Source of the DNA: Pseudomonadota bacterium
Lineage (GTDB): Bacteria; Pseudomonadota; Gammaproteobacteria; Burkholderiales; Burkholderiaceae_C
DNA length: 57,492 nucleotides
Direction: 5' to 3'
Assembly: GCA_021805805.1 (NCBI GenBank)
Contig: JAJZEB010000007.1
Span: 1 to 57,492 of the forward strand
Part shown: positions 14,244 to 41,119 of the stretch, one piece after another
How the letters are laid out: each line of letters opens with the position of its first letter
Position numbering within the stretch: the first letter of the stretch is position 1
Notes under the pieces: model-generated
Told to the model about the DNA's origin: nothing
What the model saw: only the letters and a program-made list of their open reading frames with translations
Database searches by the model: none
Made by a program: the position numbers and the translations under genes

Positions 14244-15551
<1,308 letters not shown>

Positions 15552-15648: not shown

Positions 15649-16047
15649 TCAGCGCCGCCCGCCGCCCGGGCCGAAACCGCCACCGCCTCCCGGCCCCATG
15701 CCGCCACCACCTCCCGGCCCCATGCCGCCACCGCCTCCCGGGCCCATGCCGCCACCTCCGCCCGGGCCCATGCCCGCGCCGCGCGGCGGTGGCGTGTCGG
15801 GCAGCTTGAATCCGCGCTCGCGCGCGCGCTGCTGCATCTGTCGGTGGTGCTCGGCGCGGATGCGTTCGCGCTCCGTGGCGCTGTGCGCCGCGCGCAAGCG
15901 CTGCCGGTACTCGATGCGCTCGCGCCGGGTCATCAGCTCGCTGCCGTAGATCTGCTGCTGCGCCTGCGCCGGCAGCGTGACGGCACCGAGCAGTGCGGTG
16001 CCGACACCGAGCAGCATCGCCCGGCGCGAGGTCAAGGTCGTTTTCAT
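15649..16047 (-). CDS. Secreted glycine-rich repeat protein, unknown function
   Basis: This 132-residue protein starts with a signal peptide (MKTTLTSRRAMLLGVGTALL, then PAQAQ). The SRRAML segment resembles a twin-arginine motif, so Tat export is possible. The mature part has an Arg/Gln/Glu-rich helical stretch (YRQRLRAAHSATERERIRAE) and then four copies of an MGPGGGGG unit before a Gly/Arg-rich end. The ATG at 16047 is preceded by AGGAG, and a perfect 20-bp hairpin begins 10 nt upstream of the ATG. I do not recognise a family. The repeats are low-complexity, so similarity searches will be unreliable. Confidence 0.75.
   Translation of the reverse strand: MKTTLTSRRAMLLGVGTALLGAVTLPAQAQQQIYGSELMTRRERIEYRQRLRAAHSATERERIRAEHHRQMQQRARERGFKLPDTPPPRGAGMGPGGGGGMGPGGGGGMGPGGGGGMGPGGGGGFGPGGGRR
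15677..15772 (-). repeat. Four tandem 24-bp repeats encoding MGPGGGGG units
   Basis: Four adjacent 24-nt units (15677-15700, 15701-15724, 15725-15748, 15749-15772) differ only at a few third positions. They lie in frame within the Gly-rich protein gene. Copy-number change by slippage would change protein length in 8-residue steps without a frameshift. Confidence 0.9.
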
Positions 16048-16057
16048 GGAGCTTCTC

Positions 16058-16103
16058 CTGGAATGGCCGGCCGCGCCACCTGAGGCGCGGCCGGCCATTC
16101 CAG
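16058..16103. repeat. Perfect 20-bp inverted repeat, 6-nt loop
   Basis: Positions 16058-16077 (CTGGAATGGCCGGCCGCGCC) are the exact reverse complement of 16084-16103. On the minus strand this hairpin lies in the 5' leader of the Gly-rich gene and its base includes the first bases of the CAGGAG ribosome-binding sequence. A small GGAG-AAG-CTCC stem follows directly before the ATG. No T-tract follows on either side, so a simple terminator is not indicated. Confidence 0.9.
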
Positions 16104-16189: not shown

Positions 16190-16203
16190 TTGATATACGT
16201 CAA
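16190..16203. promoter_or_regulatory. FNR/ANR-like box upstream of the hflKC-nramp-terC operon
   Basis: TTGATATACGTCAA matches the FNR/ANR half-site pattern TTGAT-N4-ATCAA at 9 of 10 defined positions. It lies 113 nt before the HflK-like start. A possible -10 TATGTT (16244-16249) would put the box centre about 60 nt upstream of the transcription start, a class I activator position. No good -35 is present, which fits activation. It could instead serve the divergent Gly-rich gene. Confidence 0.55.
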
Positions 16204-16302
16204 GCCGCCCCGAGTTCGGCGCCGTCGCGGCGTCGATCCATCGTATGTTCGTGCCCTCGGGGACGAGGGGCGCGCGTGGCGCCGCACTTGGAGGAGGATG
16301 CG

Positions 16303-17322
16303 TTGCAGCACGAAGTGGCCGGACCGCCGGCAGCCGGTTGGAAGCCGTGGCTGGGCTACGTCGTCGACGTGCTCGATCTGCGCGGCCGCGGTCGCAGGCT
16401 GCTGCTCGTGCTCATCGCCGTGGGTTGGGTCCTCAGCGGCTTTTACATGGTACAGCCCGACGAGCAGGGAATCGTCCTGCGCTTCGGCCGCTGGATCGGC
16501 ACCACCGCGCCGGGCGCGCATTACCACCTGCCGTGGCCGATCGAATCGGTGCGTCTGCCGCGGGTGACGCGGATCAACGAGATGCAGCTCGGTATCGCCG
16601 CAGGGCCGACCTTGCCCGACGGCCAGCAGATCCCGGCCAACCAGATGCTGACCGGGGACGAGAACATCGTCGAGGTCGGTTGCACGGTGTTCTGGCGCAT
16701 CGGGAGCGCCGGTGACTATCTGTTCAAGGTCAGCAACCCGCAGCACATGCTCAGGATCGCTGCCGAATCCGCGCTGCGCGACGTCGTCGCCCGCACGCCG
16801 CTGCAGGCGACGATGTCCAACGGCCGGCAGCAAGTGGCGCTGCAGACCCAGGCGCTGCTGCAGCACTGGCTCGACGAGGAGCAATCGGGAATTGTCGTCA
16901 CCCAGGTGCAGCTGCAGCGGGCGAATCCGCCGACTCAGGTGGTCGATGCCTTCAACGACGTGCAGCGCGCGCGCGCCGACCGCCAGCGCCTGCGCAACCT
17001 CGGCCTTGCCTACCGCAACAAGGTGATCCCGATCGCGCATGGCATGGCCGCACGCATCGTGCAGGGTGCGTACGCGTATCAGGCGACCACGGTCCACGTC
17101 GCCCGTGGCCAGGCCAAGCGTTTCGACGCGTTGTATGCCACCTACCGCAAGGCGAAGAACGTCACCGCGTGGCGGCTGTATTACGACAGCATGGATGCGG
17201 TGCTGGCGCATGCCGGCAAGGTGGTCGTGATCGACTCGGGCAAGCATTCGGTTCCCGGAGTCATTCCGTACCTGAACCTGCCCAATGCGAAGGCCGCGGC
17301 GAACGCCGGAGGGGCACGATGA
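16303..17322 (+). CDS. hflK: HflK-like SPFH (band 7) membrane protease modulator
   Basis: This membrane-anchored SPFH protein forms the K half of an HflK/HflC-type pair, which normally builds a cage around FtsH and modulates its proteolysis. It has 339 residues from the TTG at 16303, which is preceded by AGGAGG at 5-nt spacing. An in-frame GTG at 16276 is an alternative. A single N-terminal membrane segment (about 28-48) is followed by the SPFH domain starting VQPDEQGIVLRFGRW. It then has GAHYHLPWPIE, LTGDENIVEVGCTVFWRI, and a long helical C-terminus. Its gene context (Nramp and TerC proteins) is not the usual hflX-hflK-hflC locus, so it may be a specialised paralog. Its stop overlaps the hflC start (ATGA). 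Confidence 0.85.
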   Translation: MQHEVAGPPAAGWKPWLGYVVDVLDLRGRGRRLLLVLIAVGWVLSGFYMVQPDEQGIVLRFGRWIGTTAPGAHYHLPWPIESVRLPRVTRINEMQLGIAAGPTLPDGQQIPANQMLTGDENIVEVGCTVFWRIGSAGDYLFKVSNPQHMLRIAAESALRDVVARTPLQATMSNGRQQVALQTQALLQHWLDEEQSGIVVTQVQLQRANPPTQVVDAFNDVQRARADRQRLRNLGLAYRNKVIPIAHGMAARIVQGAYAYQATTVHVARGQAKRFDALYATYRKAKNVTAWRLYYDSMDAVLAHAGKVVVIDSGKHSVPGVIPYLNLPNAKAAANAGGAR

Positions 17323-18197
17323 AACCGAGCTGGCGGGGTGCCGGGTTGATCGCGTCGCTGCTGGTGCTGTGGGGCGCCGCGTCGACGTTCTACGTGCTTC
17401 CGCAGGGGCGGATCGACGTGCTGTTGCGCTTCGGCGCGCCGGTGCGTGTCGACCGCACTGCCGGGCTGAAATTCAAGATTCCGTTCGCCGATACCGTGCA
17501 CATCTACGATGCGCGGCTGCAGACACTCGCGCCGCCGCCACAGGAGTTGATCCTCGGCGATGAAAAACGCCTGGCGGTCGAGACCTTCACGACGTATCGC
17601 ATCGTCGACCCGCTGCGTTTCTACCAGGCCCTGATGACCAACGGTCAGGCCCAGTTCCAGCTCGACCAGCTGGTCGGAACGTCGTTGCGCATGGTGCTGG
17701 GGACGGTTCCGCTGCGCGCGCTGCTTTCGGTGCAGCGCCGGGCGGTGATCGCGCGCGTTGCCGCCGCAGTCAAGGCCAAGGCCGCGACGCTGGGCGTCTC
17801 GGTGCACGAAGTGCGGCTGCACCGCGCCGACCTGCCGCTCGGGGCCAGCGAGTCGATCTACGCGCGGATGCGCTCGTCGCGGCAACGCGAGGCCAAGCAA
17901 CTTCGCGCACAGGGCGCGGAGTGGCAACAGGAAATCGAGGCCGAGGCGAACCGCGATCGCACCGTGATCCTCGCCCAGGCCGAGCAGACCAGCCAGGTCA
18001 TCCGCGGCCAGGCGGACGCACAGGCCAACCGCATCCTCGCCCAGGCGTACGACCAGGATCCGAAGTTCTACCGCTACTACCGCGCGTTGCTGACGTATCG
18101 CCACGCGCTCGCCGCGTCGGGCGCGACTCTGGTGCTGAGCCCGGATTCGGCGCTGCTGCGCGCGCTCAAGCACGGTCCGGCGGCCGGCGTGCGTTGA
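17319..18197 (+). CDS. hflC: HflC-like SPFH (band 7) protein
   Basis: This is the partner of the preceding HflK-like protein: 292 residues with one N-terminal membrane helix (about 7-27; GLIASLLVLWGAASTFYVLP). The SPFH core follows (VLLRFGAPVRVDRTAGLKFKIPF, LGDEKRLAVETFTTYRIVDP), then a charged helical region with EIEAEANRDRTVILAQAEQTS, the hallmark of HflC. The ATGA overlap with the K subunit implies coupled, equimolar translation. Canonical HflC is slightly longer. The Nramp gene starts 23 nt after the stop, and an in-frame TTG overlapping the stop is also possible. Confidence 0.87.
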   Translation: MKPSWRGAGLIASLLVLWGAASTFYVLPQGRIDVLLRFGAPVRVDRTAGLKFKIPFADTVHIYDARLQTLAPPPQELILGDEKRLAVETFTTYRIVDPLRFYQALMTNGQAQFQLDQLVGTSLRMVLGTVPLRALLSVQRRAVIARVAAAVKAKAATLGVSVHEVRLHRADLPLGASESIYARMRSSRQREAKQLRAQGAEWQQEIEAEANRDRTVILAQAEQTSQVIRGQADAQANRILAQAYDQDPKFYRYYRALLTYRHALAASGATLVLSPDSALLRALKHGPAAGVR

Positions 18198-18220
18198 GCC
18201 GGAACGGGTTGTCGGGCGAC

Positions 18221-19453
18221 ATGCAGCGCGAACTCGCCATGCACCACAGGCTGCTGCGCGCAGCCAGCGTGCTCGGCCCCGGACTGGTCGTGATGCTCGC
18301 CGACACCGATGCCGGCAGCGTGATCACCGTGGCACAAAGCGGCGCGCAGTGGGGTTACCGCATGCTGGCTTTGCAGTTGCTGGTGATTCCGCTGATGTTC
18401 GTCGCCCAGGAGCTGACCGTGCGGCTGGCGCTGTGCAGCGGGCGCGGCTTCGGCGAGCTGGTGCTCGAGCGCTACGGCCGCACGCTGGCCTGGATCTCGA
18501 TGGCCACGCTGGTGCTGAGCTGCTTTGGCGCGCTGATCACCGAGATCAGCGGCCTGGCCGGTGCGGGCCAGCTGTTCGGCGTTCCGGTCTGGGCAAGCGC
18601 GCTGGCGGTGTGCACGGCGATTTTCGCGATGGTCGCCACCGGCAGCTATGCTTCGGTCGAGCGCATCGCGCTCGGTCTGGGGGCGTTCGAACTGGCGTTC
18701 CTGGTGGTCGCGTGGGCCGCGCACCCGAACTGGTCGACGATCGGCCGGCAGATGCTGCAGCAGCCGCTTGGCCATCGCGACTACCTGTACCTGGTGGCGG
18801 CGAACCTGGGAACCAGCATCATGCCGTGGACGCTCTTCTACCAGCAGTCGGCGCTGATCGACAAGGGCATGGGCCCCGGCGATCTGCGCGCGGCGCGGAT
18901 GGACACCCTGGCCGGAGCGGTGTTGTGCCAGCTCATCACGGTCGCGGTGCTGGTCGCCTCGGCGGCCGCCTTCGGCGGCGACGCGCGCGCGCTGGACAGC
19001 GTGCCGCAGATCGCCGAGGCGTTCACGCCCGCGCTCGGTCCGCTGGTCGGGCACGTCGTGTTCGCGATGGCGCTTGTCGGTGGCGCGCTGGTCGCGACCA
19101 TTGTCGTCAGCCTTTCCGCGGCGTGGGCGCTGGGCGAGATCCGCGGCGTACGCCATTCGCTGGCCGCGCATCCGCGCGAGGCGCCCTGGTTCTACGCCTC
19201 GTTCGGGCTGCTGCTGGCCGGCGCCGGCGCCGTGGTCGCCTCGGGAGTCAACCTGGTGCGGCTGTCGATCGCCACCGGGGTGCTCAACGCGCTGCTGCTT
19301 CCGGTGGTGCTCGGCCTGCTGTACTGGCTGGCGCGCACGGCGTTGCCCGAGCGCAGCCGACTGCGCGGCAGCTATGCGCTGGCGGTCGGTGCCGCGCTGG
19401 CGGCGACTTCGGCGCTGGCGTTGTTCAGCGGCATTGGCGGAATCATCGGCTGA
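18221..19453 (+). CDS. Nramp-family divalent metal transporter, divergent subgroup
   Basis: This 410-residue polytopic membrane protein has about 11 hydrophobic segments. The TM1 motif is DAGS in LADTDAGSVITVAQSGAQWGY, where canonical Nramp has DPGN: the Asp is kept and Asn is replaced by Ser. In TM6 the canonical MPH is MPW (LGTSIMPWTLFYQQS), so the metal-ligand Met is kept but the proton-linked His is replaced by Trp. The family imports Mn, Fe or, in some clades, Mg; substrate and proton coupling cannot be assigned here. It lies third in the SPFH operon. ATG 18221 was chosen; TTG 18194 overlapping the hflC stop is an alternative. Confidence 0.85.
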   Translation: MQRELAMHHRLLRAASVLGPGLVVMLADTDAGSVITVAQSGAQWGYRMLALQLLVIPLMFVAQELTVRLALCSGRGFGELVLERYGRTLAWISMATLVLSCFGALITEISGLAGAGQLFGVPVWASALAVCTAIFAMVATGSYASVERIALGLGAFELAFLVVAWAAHPNWSTIGRQMLQQPLGHRDYLYLVAANLGTSIMPWTLFYQQSALIDKGMGPGDLRAARMDTLAGAVLCQLITVAVLVASAAAFGGDARALDSVPQIAEAFTPALGPLVGHVVFAMALVGGALVATIVVSLSAAWALGEIRGVRHSLAAHPREAPWFYASFGLLLAGAGAVVASGVNLVRLSIATGVLNALLLPVVLGLLYWLARTALPERSRLRGSYALAVGAALAATSALALFSGIGGIIG

Positions 19454-19476
19454 CGCAGCGAAACGGGAACGCGCAC

Positions 19477-20565
19477 GTGTTTTTCACCTCAGGCAGTCAC
19501 GCCCTCACCGTCATCACGCAGATCGTGTTCGTCGATCTGCTGCTCAGCGGCGACAATGCGGTGCTGATCGCTCTGGTCTGCCGTGACCTACCGTCCGACA
19601 TGAAGGCGCCCGCGCTGGTCGCCGGAACCGTGGCGGCGATCACGCTGCGCACCGTGCTGACCGGGGTTGCCGGCGTGTTGCTGCAACTGCCGTTGATCGA
19701 GATCGGCGGCGCGCTGCTGCTGCTCGTCGTGGCGATCAGGCTGCTCGTCGCCGAGGAGCAGAAATCCGCCGGCAGCGAACCGGCCAGCGGGTTCTGGGGC
19801 GCGGTGGCGACCATCGTCTTGGCCGACCTTGCGATGAGCCTGGACAATGTCGTGGCGATCGCAGGCGCGGCAAACGGTTCGCTTTCCTACCTGTTGTTCG
19901 GGCTGGCCTTGAGCATTCCGCTGCTGATGTTCGGCAGCACGTTCGTCGGGCGGCTGCTGGAGACGCGCCCGCTGCTCGTCCCGGCGGGGGCCGCACTGCT
20001 GGGCTGGATCGCCGGCCATCTGGCGGTGTCCGACCCGCTGTGGGCCGCGACGATCGCGCGCCAACTGCCTGCGCTGCACGTCGTCGTTCCGGCACTGTGC
20101 GCGGTCTTCGTCGTGGCCGAGGGGCGTATCGTGGCCGAGCGGCTGCGCGTCGCCGGGCCCGCGCCGAAGCTGCGCCGGGCCGATTCGGCAGCGGCAGCCG
20201 TACCTGCGCGCGCGCGCGAAGGCACGCCGCCTGTGCCGGCGCCGGCCCTGTGCGTGGTTCCGACGGGTACCTGGGGCGCGGCGGAGCCGGTCGGCGCCGC
20301 GATGAACGACGCGATGAACGACGCGATGAACGACGCAGTGGCCGAACCCGGATGGCCCGGCGCGGGGGCGCTGCGCGGCCCCTCCGACGCGCAGCCGCTG
20401 CCGTTGACGACCTGGCAGCGCATCGAACGCGCCGCGCTGAAGGTGTATGTGCCGCTCGTCGTGGTGTCGATCTTTGCGCTGCTGGCGTGGATGGGATGGC
20501 GCGTGATCGACATCCAGCACTACCTGCCGCCGCCGCGAGCAGCGGCATCGGCGACGAGGCACTGA
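19477..20565 (+). CDS. TerC-family integral membrane protein with extended C-terminal linker
   Basis: TerC proteins are membrane proteins linked to tellurite resistance, Mn export (Alx/MeeF type) or metalation of exported enzymes. This one has 362 residues from GTG 19477. Two conserved acidic motifs are present: VFVDLLLSGDNAVLIAL near residue 18 and LADLAMSLDNVVAIAGAA near 119. A hydrophobic core of about seven helices is followed by a disordered Ala/Pro-rich linker of about 80 residues containing three MNDA units. A final membrane helix (VYVPLVVVSIFALLAWMG) ends it, which is longer than the usual ~220-residue TerC core. It is last in the hflK-hflC-nramp operon. Confidence 0.85.
   Translation: MFFTSGSHALTVITQIVFVDLLLSGDNAVLIALVCRDLPSDMKAPALVAGTVAAITLRTVLTGVAGVLLQLPLIEIGGALLLLVVAIRLLVAEEQKSAGSEPASGFWGAVATIVLADLAMSLDNVVAIAGAANGSLSYLLFGLALSIPLLMFGSTFVGRLLETRPLLVPAGAALLGWIAGHLAVSDPLWAATIARQLPALHVVVPALCAVFVVAEGRIVAERLRVAGPAPKLRRADSAAAAVPARAREGTPPVPAPALCVVPTGTWGAAEPVGAAMNDAMNDAMNDAVAEPGWPGAGALRGPSDAQPLPLTTWQRIERAALKVYVPLVVVSIFALLAWMGWRVIDIQHYLPPPRAAASATRH
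20299..20334 (+). repeat. Three perfect 12-bp tandem repeats in the TerC-like gene
   Basis: GCGATGAACGAC is repeated three times without mismatch (20299-20310, 20311-20322, 20323-20334), encoding AMND units in the predicted linker. It is a possible short variable-number repeat. Confidence 0.95.
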
Positions 20566-20590: not shown

Positions 20591-21040
20591 CTATTTGGTC
20601 TGGTGCCGCATCAGCCGCGCCTGCTCGCGCTGCCAATCGCGCTTGGATTCGGTGTCGCGCTTGTCGTGCAGCTTCTTGCCGCGGCCGAGCGCGAAGTCGA
20701 GCTTGATGCGGCCATTTTTGTAATGCAGGTTCAGCGGAACCAGGGTGTAGCCGCGTTGCTCGACCTTGCCGATCAGGCGCCGGATCTCGTCCTTGTGCAA
20801 CAAAAGCTTGCGCGTGCGGCTGGCGTCCGGACGCACATGGGTGGAGGCGCTTTGCAGCGGTGTCACGTTCATGCCGACCAGGTACAGCTCGCCGTCGCGG
20901 ATCATGACGTAACCGTCGAGCAGCTGGGCACGCCCGGCGCGCACCGCCTTGACCTCCCAGCCCTCGAGGACGATTCCGGCCTCGTAGCGGTCTTCGAGGA
21001 AGTAATTGAACGCTGCCTTGCGGTTTTCTGCGATGCTCAT
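20591..21040 (-). CDS. smpB: SsrA-binding protein SmpB
   Basis: This tmRNA-binding protein is essential for trans-translation and delivers tmRNA to stalled ribosomes. It has 149 residues, the normal length. Motifs include [42 protein letters not shown] and the basic tail with [19 protein letters not shown], which folds into the mRNA channel. It is divergent from ratA with 62 nt between them and converges on the terC-like gene. The smpB/ratA back-to-back arrangement is widespread in Beta- and Gammaproteobacteria. Confidence 0.98.
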
Positions 21041-39547: not shown

Positions 39548-40453
39548 TCAGCCGGTTTTCTTCAGCACCGTCATCGCCGATGCGACCAATGCCGCGGCCT
39601 GGCTCATGTCGCCGGGAACGACCAGGGTGGTGCTCGTCTTGGCCAGGTTGGCGTACGCCTCCAGCGCCTGCTGCGCGACCTTGAGCTGCACGGCGTCGAT
39701 TCCGCCTGGCTTGGCGATCGCCGCGGCGACCAGTTCGAGCGCGTGCGCGGTGGCACCGGCCACAGCCTCGATCGCTGCAGCTTCACCCTGCGCGCGGTTG
39801 ATCGCGGCCTGGCGCTCGCCTTCGGAGCGCGCGATGAAGGCCTGGCGCTCGCCTTCGGCCTGGTTGATCTGCTGCTGGCGGGTTCCCTCGGACGTCGCGA
39901 TCACTGCGCGTTTTTCGCGCTCGGCAGTGATCTGGCGCTGCATCGCGTGCAGGATCTCGGCGGGAGGAGTCAGATCCTTGATTTCGTAGCGCAGCACCTT
40001 GACGCCCCACGTCGTTGCGGCCTCGTCGAGCGCCGAGACCACGCTGCTGTTGATGAACTCGCGCTCTTCGAACGTGCGGTCGAGCTCGAGCTTGCCGATC
40101 ACCGACCGCAGCGTGGTCTGCGCCAGTTGCGAAATCGCCAGCACGTAGTTCGACGAGCCGTAGCTGGCGCGCATCGGATCGGTGACCTGGAAATACAGGA
40201 TGCCGTCGACCGTCAGCTGGGTGTTGTCGCGGGTGATGCAGATCTGGCTGGCGATGTCCAGCGGAACTTCCTTGAGCAAATGACGGTAGGCGACGCGGTC
40301 GACGAACGGCACGATGAAGTTCAACCCGGGAGCGAGCGTGCGGTCGTACTTGCCCAGCCGCTCGACGACCCAGGCGTGCTGCTGGGGCACGACCTTGACG
40401 CCGCGGGTGACGATGATCACCGCGATCACGGCGACGATGACGGCGAATTCCAT
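39548..40453 (-). CDS. qmcA: SPFH-domain paraslipin (QmcA / stomatin-like)
   Basis: This 301-residue slipin has an N-terminal membrane anchor (AVIVAVIAVIIVTRGVKVVP). The SPFH domain begins VPQQHAWVVERLGKYDRTLAPGLNFIVPF and includes DIASQICITRDNTQLTVDGILYFQV. The C-terminal coiled coil has repeated EGERQAFIARSEGERQAAINRAQGEA. Slipins organise membrane microdomains and are usually paired with NfeD proteins. The NfeD gene lies 35 nt upstream on the same strand, so this is the standard nfeD-slipin operon, separate from the HflKC-like pair at 16.3-18.2 kb. Confidence 0.95.
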   Translation of the reverse strand: MEFAVIVAVIAVIIVTRGVKVVPQQHAWVVERLGKYDRTLAPGLNFIVPFVDRVAYRHLLKEVPLDIASQICITRDNTQLTVDGILYFQVTDPMRASYGSSNYVLAISQLAQTTLRSVIGKLELDRTFEEREFINSSVVSALDEAATTWGVKVLRYEIKDLTPPAEILHAMQRQITAEREKRAVIATSEGTRQQQINQAEGERQAFIARSEGERQAAINRAQGEAAAIEAVAGATAHALELVAAAIAKPGGIDAVQLKVAQQALEAYANLAKTSTTLVVPGDMSQAAALVASAMTVLKKTG

Positions 40454-40488
40454 CGTGGTTCTCCAGAAGGTGGGGGCAGGGGAAAGGC

Positions 40489-40926
40489 TCAGGAAGCGTC
40501 GCGTGGCCGCAGCACCAGGGTGTTGCCGTCGAGCGCGACGATGCGGTGCAGGCCGGCACGGGCGGGGCAATCGGGCGCCAGCCGGGCCGGCCACTCGGTC
40601 CCGCGGTAGCGTACGCGGGCGCTGCCGTCGGCGTCCCACGCCGCGACCTGCACGGTCTGGCCGATGTCCATTTGCAGGTTCGGATCGCCCGACGCGCGCG
40701 CTGCGCGGGCGTTGCGTGCGCGACGCAGATACAGCACGCCGACCAGCCCGGCGCCGACCAGCGCGGCGGCGATCAGCTGCGCGGGAACCGGCAGTCCCAG
40801 ATGTGCGGCCAGCGCTCCGGCCGCCGCGCCGAGCGCAAGCATCAGCAGGTCGAAGGTGCCGACGGCAAGCTCGAGCGCGACGAGCGCGGCGGCGGCGATC
40901 CACCACAGGGTCGGATGACTGAGCAC
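40489..40926 (-). CDS. NfeD-family membrane protein
   Basis: This is a short NfeD (NfeD1b type): 145 residues from GTG 40926, chosen because GAGG lies 8 nt upstream. It has three or four membrane helices (LWWIAAAALVALELAVGTFDLLMLALG and on) followed by a C-terminal OB-fold domain with GQTVQVAAWDADGSARVRYRGTEWPARL, the family signature. It is the partner of the downstream slipin. An upstream in-frame ATG at 40980 would add 18 residues without a good ribosome-binding site. Confidence 0.9.
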   Translation of the reverse strand: MLSHPTLWWIAAAALVALELAVGTFDLLMLALGAAAGALAAHLGLPVPAQLIAAALVGAGLVGVLYLRRARNARAARASGDPNLQMDIGQTVQVAAWDADGSARVRYRGTEWPARLAPDCPARAGLHRIVALDGNTLVLRPRDAS

Positions 40927-41119
40927 GATGCGGGCCTCGGACGGGTTGCTGAGCAGTTGGGCATGCAGGCACCCAAGCATATACGTGCATCGACACACTG
41001 GCGCGAAATCCACGCACGCAGCAATTTCACCACGCCGCGTTCAGGTCGCGGTCGCACAATTTGCCTAAACTTCGCGGCGGGCTCGAACCGCGAGCCGGAA
41101 CTTCATGCTGGGGCCGCCG

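Follow-up and report, generated by a model that had tools for sequence, protein, structure and literature searches.

A second HflK-HflC gene pair linked to a tailed TerC protein and often to an Nramp-like transporter

SPFH cages and TerC proteins are both widespread and the working of both is largely open; to our knowledge, few SPFH domes have a known cargo. Here we describe a four-gene cluster at positions 16,303–20,565 of a 57,492-nucleotide stretch of Burkholderiales DNA (the window; contig JAJZEB010000007.1 of assembly GCA_021805805.1), which encodes an HflK-like and an HflC-like SPFH protein (HflK2 and HflC2, together HflK2C2), a PF01566 (Nramp/NRMT-like) transporter and a TerC/YjbE-type membrane protein. 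The closest described systems are the following. The HflK-HflC-FtsH assembly of E. coli (PMC12048511, PMC13220708) resembles HflK2C2 in the alignable sequences of HflK and HflC and in the adjacency of the hflK-hflC gene pair. In contrast, HflK2C2 is devoid of the HflK_N domain, lies outside the hflX locus, is linked to TerC and often to Nramp, and occurs beside a further HflK in 21 of 23 genomes. SecDF, FtsH and FloA were co-purified with the B. subtilis TerC proteins MeeF and MeeY, and SecY and FloT were in addition recovered with MeeF (PMC10550928). That flotillin/FtsH co-purification parallels the gene linkage seen here for the same TerC family, although the SPFH partner is now HflKC-like and encoded alongside, and the TerC tail usually displays an extra membrane helix. 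EleNRMT (PMC8806188) is the best PDB match of the transporter and shares with it a tryptophan at the position of the first proton-pathway histidine, while the metal site is different. Stomatin domes have been observed to enclose AQP1 and UT-B (preprint, PMC12407830) and thus provide an SPFH dome around a transporter, although the system is human, the cargo is another and the evidence is cryo-electron microscopy where ours is a proposal. Similarly, in the flotillin-associated rhodopsin cluster (PMC10308929) a divergent membrane-pump paralogue lies beside an SPFH gene with the normal copy elsewhere, in that case with flotillin and rhodopsin rather than HflKC and TerC/Nramp. No open-access full text was found in which HflK, HflC, Nramp and TerC occur together, most subscription journals being outside this coverage. 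The two texts naming TerC with HflK and the two naming it with HflC, one of them common to both, were omics or annotation papers, as judged by listing and abstract start, and none of the titles among the matches listed concerned HflKC-TerC-Nramp gene linkage. In the main text of a paper on nine P. aeruginosa SPFH proteins (PMC13086221) TerC is not mentioned.

The window-type HflK sequences form a single clade that is linked to TerC. Twenty-three loci from two proteobacterial classes were pooled from several searches; they were initially separated on the basis of tblastn score (at least 298 versus at most 285 bits) when the TerC hits were already visible, and the HflK clade was afterwards computed without TerC. 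In a midpoint-rooted HflK tree of 71 rows the 23 sequences occupy one side of a branch with a Shimodaira-Hasegawa-like approximate likelihood ratio (SH-aLRT) support of 100, and they remain together with the same support in a tree of 88 rows that includes 17 further HflKs from the class of genome G942. The HflC tree contains a matching HflC2 group comprising 22 of its 70 rows (support 100), one of the 23 HflC sequences being absent. All trees are of a 'quick' type without bootstrap. TerC adjoins HflKC at 22 of the 23 clade loci, and at the exception (L039) the contig ends inside the Nramp gene. Nramp adjoins HflKC at only 14 of the 23, so the four genes do not constitute a fixed system; the stable core is HflK-HflC-TerC. 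The linkage is kept through all four gene orders found, K-C-N-T, N-T-K-C, K-C-T and T-K-C (initials of HflK, HflC, Nramp and TerC). At 27 other HflK loci tblastn detected neither TerC nor Nramp, and a TerC hidden Markov model found no TerC at these 27 or at 17 further loci taken with 1.5-kb flanks, while recognising 30 of 30 TerC loci used as positive controls. The tree includes 25 of the 27 comparison loci, all of them outside the clade, and lacks L169 and L178; the flanks measure at least 2.8 kb on both sides except at L181, with 89 bases on one side. Since the rows are related, the Fisher p value (2.6e-13) is not a true probability. Clustering of the flanking genes revealed no gene outside the core that recurs across most families; the clusters joining two families include c3 and c6 (the window's genus and L120) and c11 (family f28 and the non-clade locus L179). 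Gene starts given for loci beyond the window are approximate.

The distribution of the clade is patchy. Window-type HflK was found in 4 of 28 genomes of the genus, in ten genomes of the order besides the window's own (of 399, in four families, with matches above 300 bits) and in 3 of 398 genomes of a phylum sample. A 385-genome sample of the class of G942 gave 18 matches at E <= 1e-88, of which G942 itself falls in the clade and the other 17 outside it, and a sample of the window's class (369 genomes) gave two matches besides the window's own, both outside. A scan of named genomes returned 15 loci, namely three genus members again, six new clade members (uncultured Rhodospirillaceae, two; Ancalomicrobiaceae, two; Rhizobiales, one; Alphaproteobacteria, one) and six counted outside. 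Carriers of the module include single-contig genomes, for example G288, G402 and G252. The cuts applied, E <= 1e-60 in the order and E <= 1e-88 in the class of G942, could hide divergent members. In the 71-row tree the neighbours of the clade are HflKs of other classes, including the alphaproteobacterial Azospirillum, Tistrella and Reyranella, and this position together with the patchy distribution makes horizontal transfer likely. The same patchiness, and the lack of Nramp at nine loci, would also be expected if the genes were simply transferred together without a joint function, TerC (alone or with Nramp) acting as a metal-stress cassette and the SPFH pair in envelope stress, united by a common promoter and a mobile history. 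This explanation appears improbable, as hitch-hiking accounts poorly for a linkage kept through four gene orders, for a linked TerC that is the sole TerC in eight genomes and for the TerC tail that, as described below, goes with the linkage. A chance neighbourhood in one genome is ruled out by recurrence of the cluster in the genus, in the order and in another class. On plasmids, 69 records matched, each below 60% identity; the three best (two of Azospirillum, one of Tistrella) consist of HflKC and a DegQ gene with no annotated TerC and lie outside the clade.

The window pair is an extra copy, as contig C197 of the same genome (G000) holds a complete and separate locus composed of der, hflX, hflK, hflC, hisZ and purA. 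The window and C197 proteins are 34% (HflK) and 31% (HflC) identical, and a sole or relocated canonical HflKC is ruled out by this hflX-type locus. An hflX-hflK-hflC locus is the beta/gammaproteobacterial arrangement (PMC13086221); the window pair does not have this placement and sits instead between isocitrate lyase and smpB. Of the 23 genomes carrying the window type, those in which no additional HflK exceeds the TIGR01933 cut-off are G019 (81% complete) and G1153. The original prediction, made from the window alone, had proposed to look for the four families together in other genomes and for a second, canonical hflKC in this one, and had suspected that the pair was repurposed. Both were found, and the pair belongs to a clade of its own in each of the HflK and HflC trees.

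The linked TerC proteins display a C-terminal extension. The window TerC (19,477–20,565, plus strand, 362 amino acids, GTG start) scores 136.4 bits against Pfam TerC (cut-off 27.8) and 186.8 against TIGR03717 YjbE (134.8). Its core extends to about residue 226 and is followed by a low-complexity linker and a C-terminal membrane helix at about 312–347. The AlphaFold model, of low confidence (mean predicted local distance difference test, pLDDT, 60.3), displays a helical core, an unstructured region at 230–306 and a helix at 312–347. Two Asp-Asn motifs, D26-N27 and D123-N124, are invariant in 9 linked TerCs. The tail of linked TerCs measures 49–242 residues beyond the core and contains an extra hydrophobic or membrane helix in 19 of 22, against none of the seven TerCs in these genomes that match the window TerC but are unlinked. 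The reverse test gave the same picture: among 30 high-scoring TerC loci from 290 genomes of the order, a fraction of the many more TerC matches, nine lie beside HflKC/Nramp genes and eight of these nine have the helix, which is found in none of the 21 unlinked TerCs. At L170 (2951–4354) the tail of the linked TerC is instead a response-regulator receiver domain (PF00072, 58.6 bits). This domain places the tail in the cytoplasm and so suggests that the extra helix, where present as usual, crosses outward; the fusion itself suggests phospho-signalling to a TerC protein. Eleven of 30 TerC loci from module-carrying genomes had no tblastn match in the tail comparison. Nine of them are other TerC builds, not directly comparable with the linked TerCs, comprising four longer proteins with a hydrophobic segment after the core and five of 568–576 amino acids without one; two of these five that were tested, L216 and L219 (family f28), are CBS-CorC fusions. 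The remaining two of the eleven are L194 and L198. The linked TerCs of L171, L172 and L122 carry about 80–100 extra residues past the tail helix, and a Pfam scan of L171 and L122 gave no further match.

HflK2 (16,303–17,322, plus strand, 339 amino acids) scores 237.7 bits against TIGR01933 hflK (NCBIfam cut-off 159.4) and aligns with residues 77–372 of E. coli HflK, the cage-forming part included. HflC2 (17,319–18,197, plus strand, 292 amino acids) scores 176 bits against TIGR01932 hflC (cut-off 134.4) and aligns with E. coli HflC in two stretches. Both proteins are assigned to Band_7 by Pfam. The HflK_N domain (PF12221; Pfam), located before the membrane helix, is absent from HflK2 and from all 23 clade HflKs, while it is present in 48 of 54 others (35/38 and 13/16); 16 of the 17 extra HflKs were scanned, and L236 was omitted since there is a stop within its match. 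A looser HflK N-terminus motif is likewise found in none of the 23 and in 70 of 79 others; of the 17 extra HflKs only 8 conform to it. In E. coli, joint replacement of HflK R141, E142 and R185 weakens FtsH binding (PMC13220708). In the 23 clade HflKs, R141 is conserved in one, E142 in four and an arginine or lysine at position 185 in 17. The same sites vary among 48 other HflKs (R141 in 23, E142 in none), and for this reason the FtsH-contact residues are not decisive as evidence. FtsH (PF01434) was found once in 15 of the module-carrying genomes, twice in seven and not at all in one. The window genome encodes two FtsH-type proteases, on contigs C97 and C169.

An HflKC paralogue evolutionarily bound to a tailed TerC is a defined pair for asking whether bacterial SPFH domes enclose transporters, and equally whether TerC acts inside such a compartment. 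Our preferred reading, tentative and falling a little short of an even chance, is that HflK2C2 is a dedicated SPFH assembly whose dome surrounds TerC (and Nramp) and serves metal export or metalation. HflK2C2 would constitute a membrane-anchored periplasmic dome enclosing the TerC-type metal exporter or metallochaperone, together with the Nramp/NRMT-like transporter where one is encoded. Membrane or exported proteins that need metal would obtain Mn2+ or a similar ion released by TerC under or beside this dome, and the Nramp-like carrier would provide that ion or keep it in balance across the same patch of membrane. TerC may dock into the dome through its C-terminal linker and extra membrane helix. 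In favour of this reading are the single clades formed by HflK2 and by HflC2, the TerC linkage kept across gene orders and missing from other HflK loci, the further HflK in 21 genomes, the loss of HflK_N, the tail of the linked TerCs, the alignment with the cage-forming part of E. coli HflK, and the MeeF/MeeY and stomatin precedents. If the reading holds, some bacteria may confine their metal handling to a small compartment of the membrane. In a bolder form of the proposal, which we regard as unlikely, HflK2C2 would work without FtsH and build a microcompartment in the membrane, keeping TerC, joined in many lineages by an uncoupled Nramp-like carrier, at the secretion machinery. Exported metalloproteins would then receive their metal in a shielded periplasmic dome, and this bacterial compartment for metalation would spread as a gene module.

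Several observations weigh against an enclosing dome. Physical contact between HflK2C2 and TerC or Nramp is inferred from gene linkage. The TerC tree barely groups the linked TerCs (support 24). Other TerC builds of the same genomes also extend past the core, so TerC extensions as such are not unique, and in L120 and L163 the tail of the linked TerC shows no helix above the cut-off and no receiver domain either. Comparison of the window TerC model with solved structures gave no fold match. No Nramp was detected at nine of the 23 loci, though the contigs of L160, L162 and L172 end near the cluster. HflK_N is also missing in 6 of the 54 HflKs outside the clade, and HflK2 and HflC2 score above the cut-offs of the FtsH-modulator families TIGR01933 and TIGR01932. 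Moreover, HflK2C2 could simply share FtsH, because 13 of the 23 genomes hold at least two HflKs and a single FtsH.

These last points bear on the possibility that HflK2C2 is a second modulator of the ordinary FtsH, which would recruit the protease to TerC-associated translocons or control TerC/Nramp turnover on metal change, the partners being co-transcribed clients. Besides the passing NCBIfam scores, this explanation could draw on the arginine or lysine retained at position 185 in 17 of 23 clade HflKs and on B. subtilis, where FtsH is essential in the absence of meeF and meeY and co-purifies with both TerC proteins (PMC10550928), data that fit a second FtsH adaptor and an enclosing dome equally well. 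In the 13 genomes with one FtsH, any such role would use a shared enzyme. It is opposed by the loss of HflK_N in 23 of 23 sequences, by the scarcity of R141 and E142 in the clade, though both sites vary in the 48 other HflKs, and by the tail peculiar to the linked TerCs, which points to TerC as the structural partner. On balance we consider the FtsH-modulator role possible yet doubtful.

The transporter (18,221–19,453, plus strand, 410 amino acids) scores 206.9 bits against Pfam Nramp (cut-off 29.8) and below the cut-offs of NCBIfam MntH, nramp and Nramp_1. Its best PDB match is EleNRMT both by sequence (152 bits versus 73 for MntH) and by predicted structure (template modelling score, TM-score, 0.85/0.88; model pLDDT 78.9). 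The metal site is formed by D30-A-G-S33 and T198-S-I-M201-P-W203 and thus reads DxxS-TxxM. Among the 14 linked Nramps the serine is conserved in 13, the aspartate in 13 (Glu in L122), the methionine in 13 (Asn in L170) and the tryptophan in all 14, while the α-10 glutamine position is Gly or Ala in 12 of the 13 readable sequences. The α-6b proton-pathway histidines are lost, with W203 present and no histidine in the PWTLFYQQ that follows. In NRMTs the site motif is DxxG-TxxA/T and the loss of two histidines is tied to loss of proton coupling (PMC8806188). A plain NRMT is ruled out by the DxxS-TxxM site, and a plain MntH or classical Nramp by the absence of both the DxxN-AxxM site and the α-6b histidines. 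The original prediction had described a divergent Nramp with DAGS and MPW, and both motifs are present; the protein is not simply degenerate, however, since the tryptophan is shared with the uncoupled EleNRMT and the methionine ligand is kept. These residues are consistent with a carrier that is uncoupled from protons yet may have kept a preference for transition metals. The ion carried by both the Nramp-like protein and TerC could instead be Mg2+ rather than Mn2+ or Fe2+, an alternative concerning the ion only and compatible with either a dome or an FtsH modulator. The closer similarity to the Mg2+ transporter EleNRMT than to MntH speaks for it, yet the Ala or Thr that marks NRMTs in place of the methionine is absent, all but one of the 14 linked Nramps retain M201 and the DxxG-TxxA motif was seen only in unlinked paralogues; we give Mg2+ little credence. 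In the Nramp tree 13 of the 14 linked sequences form one clade and L170 lies apart, where long branches meet, which may only suggest a second Nramp recruitment at that locus. The genus harbours two further PF01566 paralogues away from HflKC/TerC (L041, L042, L043, L046, L048 and others), the first showing the NRMT motif DxxG-TxxA and the second DxxS-AxxM, together with a glutamate at the α-10 glutamine position. The window genome showed only the DxxS-AxxM paralogue (L041; contig C130, 5469–6662).

Upstream of the cluster, an FNR/FixK-type inverted repeat, TTGAT-ATAC-GTCAA (TTGATATACGTCAA; 16,190–16,203, no strand assigned), matches 9 of the 10 positions of the FNR-type operator consensus TTGAT-N4-ATCAA. 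Mononucleotide shuffles of the upstream region scored as high in 2 of 2000 cases. The counterpart in three relatives is TTGACATGCGTCAA (TTGAC-ATGC-GTCAA), whose half-sites TTGAC and GTCAA form a perfect inverted repeat. The repeat is followed by TATGTT (16,244–16,249, plus strand), a possible −10 element by alignment, and this arrangement is conserved in all four operon-carrying genomes of the genus. Among the upstream regions of 19 clade loci outside the genus, 16 score at most 7/10 and three 8/10 (L160 and L162, with one shared site, and L172), which is mostly chance level. A CRP/FNR-type site is likely in the window's genus, and is claimed for the genus only because the box is kept there while upstream regions elsewhere mostly score at chance. 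A CRP/FNR-type regulator would probably control the operon in this genus. The FNR-like box of the original prediction stands as a genus-level feature, while oxygen control fares less well: oxygen as the signal is weakly indicated by the consensus, from which the kind of binding protein is likewise presumed. In a riboswitch search, Rfam at gathering threshold returned only tRNA and small signal recognition particle RNA, both elsewhere in the window.

The four genes are tightly packed, as had been claimed from the window alone, and all open reading frames are confirmed in place with families assigned by Pfam and NCBIfam. The genes of HflK2 and HflC2 share a 4-nucleotide ATGA overlap, and gaps of 23 nucleotides each separate HflC2 from Nramp and Nramp from TerC. 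The true start of the HflK2 gene is most likely TTG 16,303, because GGAGGAGG lies at 16,290–16,297, 5 nucleotides upstream, and the start region is conserved in three relatives. Isocitrate lyase (14,244–15,551) is located 5' of the cluster and smpB (20,591–21,040, opposite strand) 3' of it. Between isocitrate lyase and the cluster, 15,649–16,098 (minus strand) encodes a small protein that looks secreted and has a tail of Gly/Met/Pro repeats; it gave no match in a Pfam scan and clusters with genes at the same position in three relatives. In family f28 (L116, L117, L118, L119 and L121) a DUF1615-cluster gene follows the module at all five loci and a DUF4337-cluster gene precedes it at four, L121 being the exception, the Pfam assignments having been made on the L116 genes only. 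The window contains a further SPFH gene (39,548–41,017, minus strand), whose product combines Band_7 and Band_7_C with a long N-terminal part and which adjoins a MarC-family gene.

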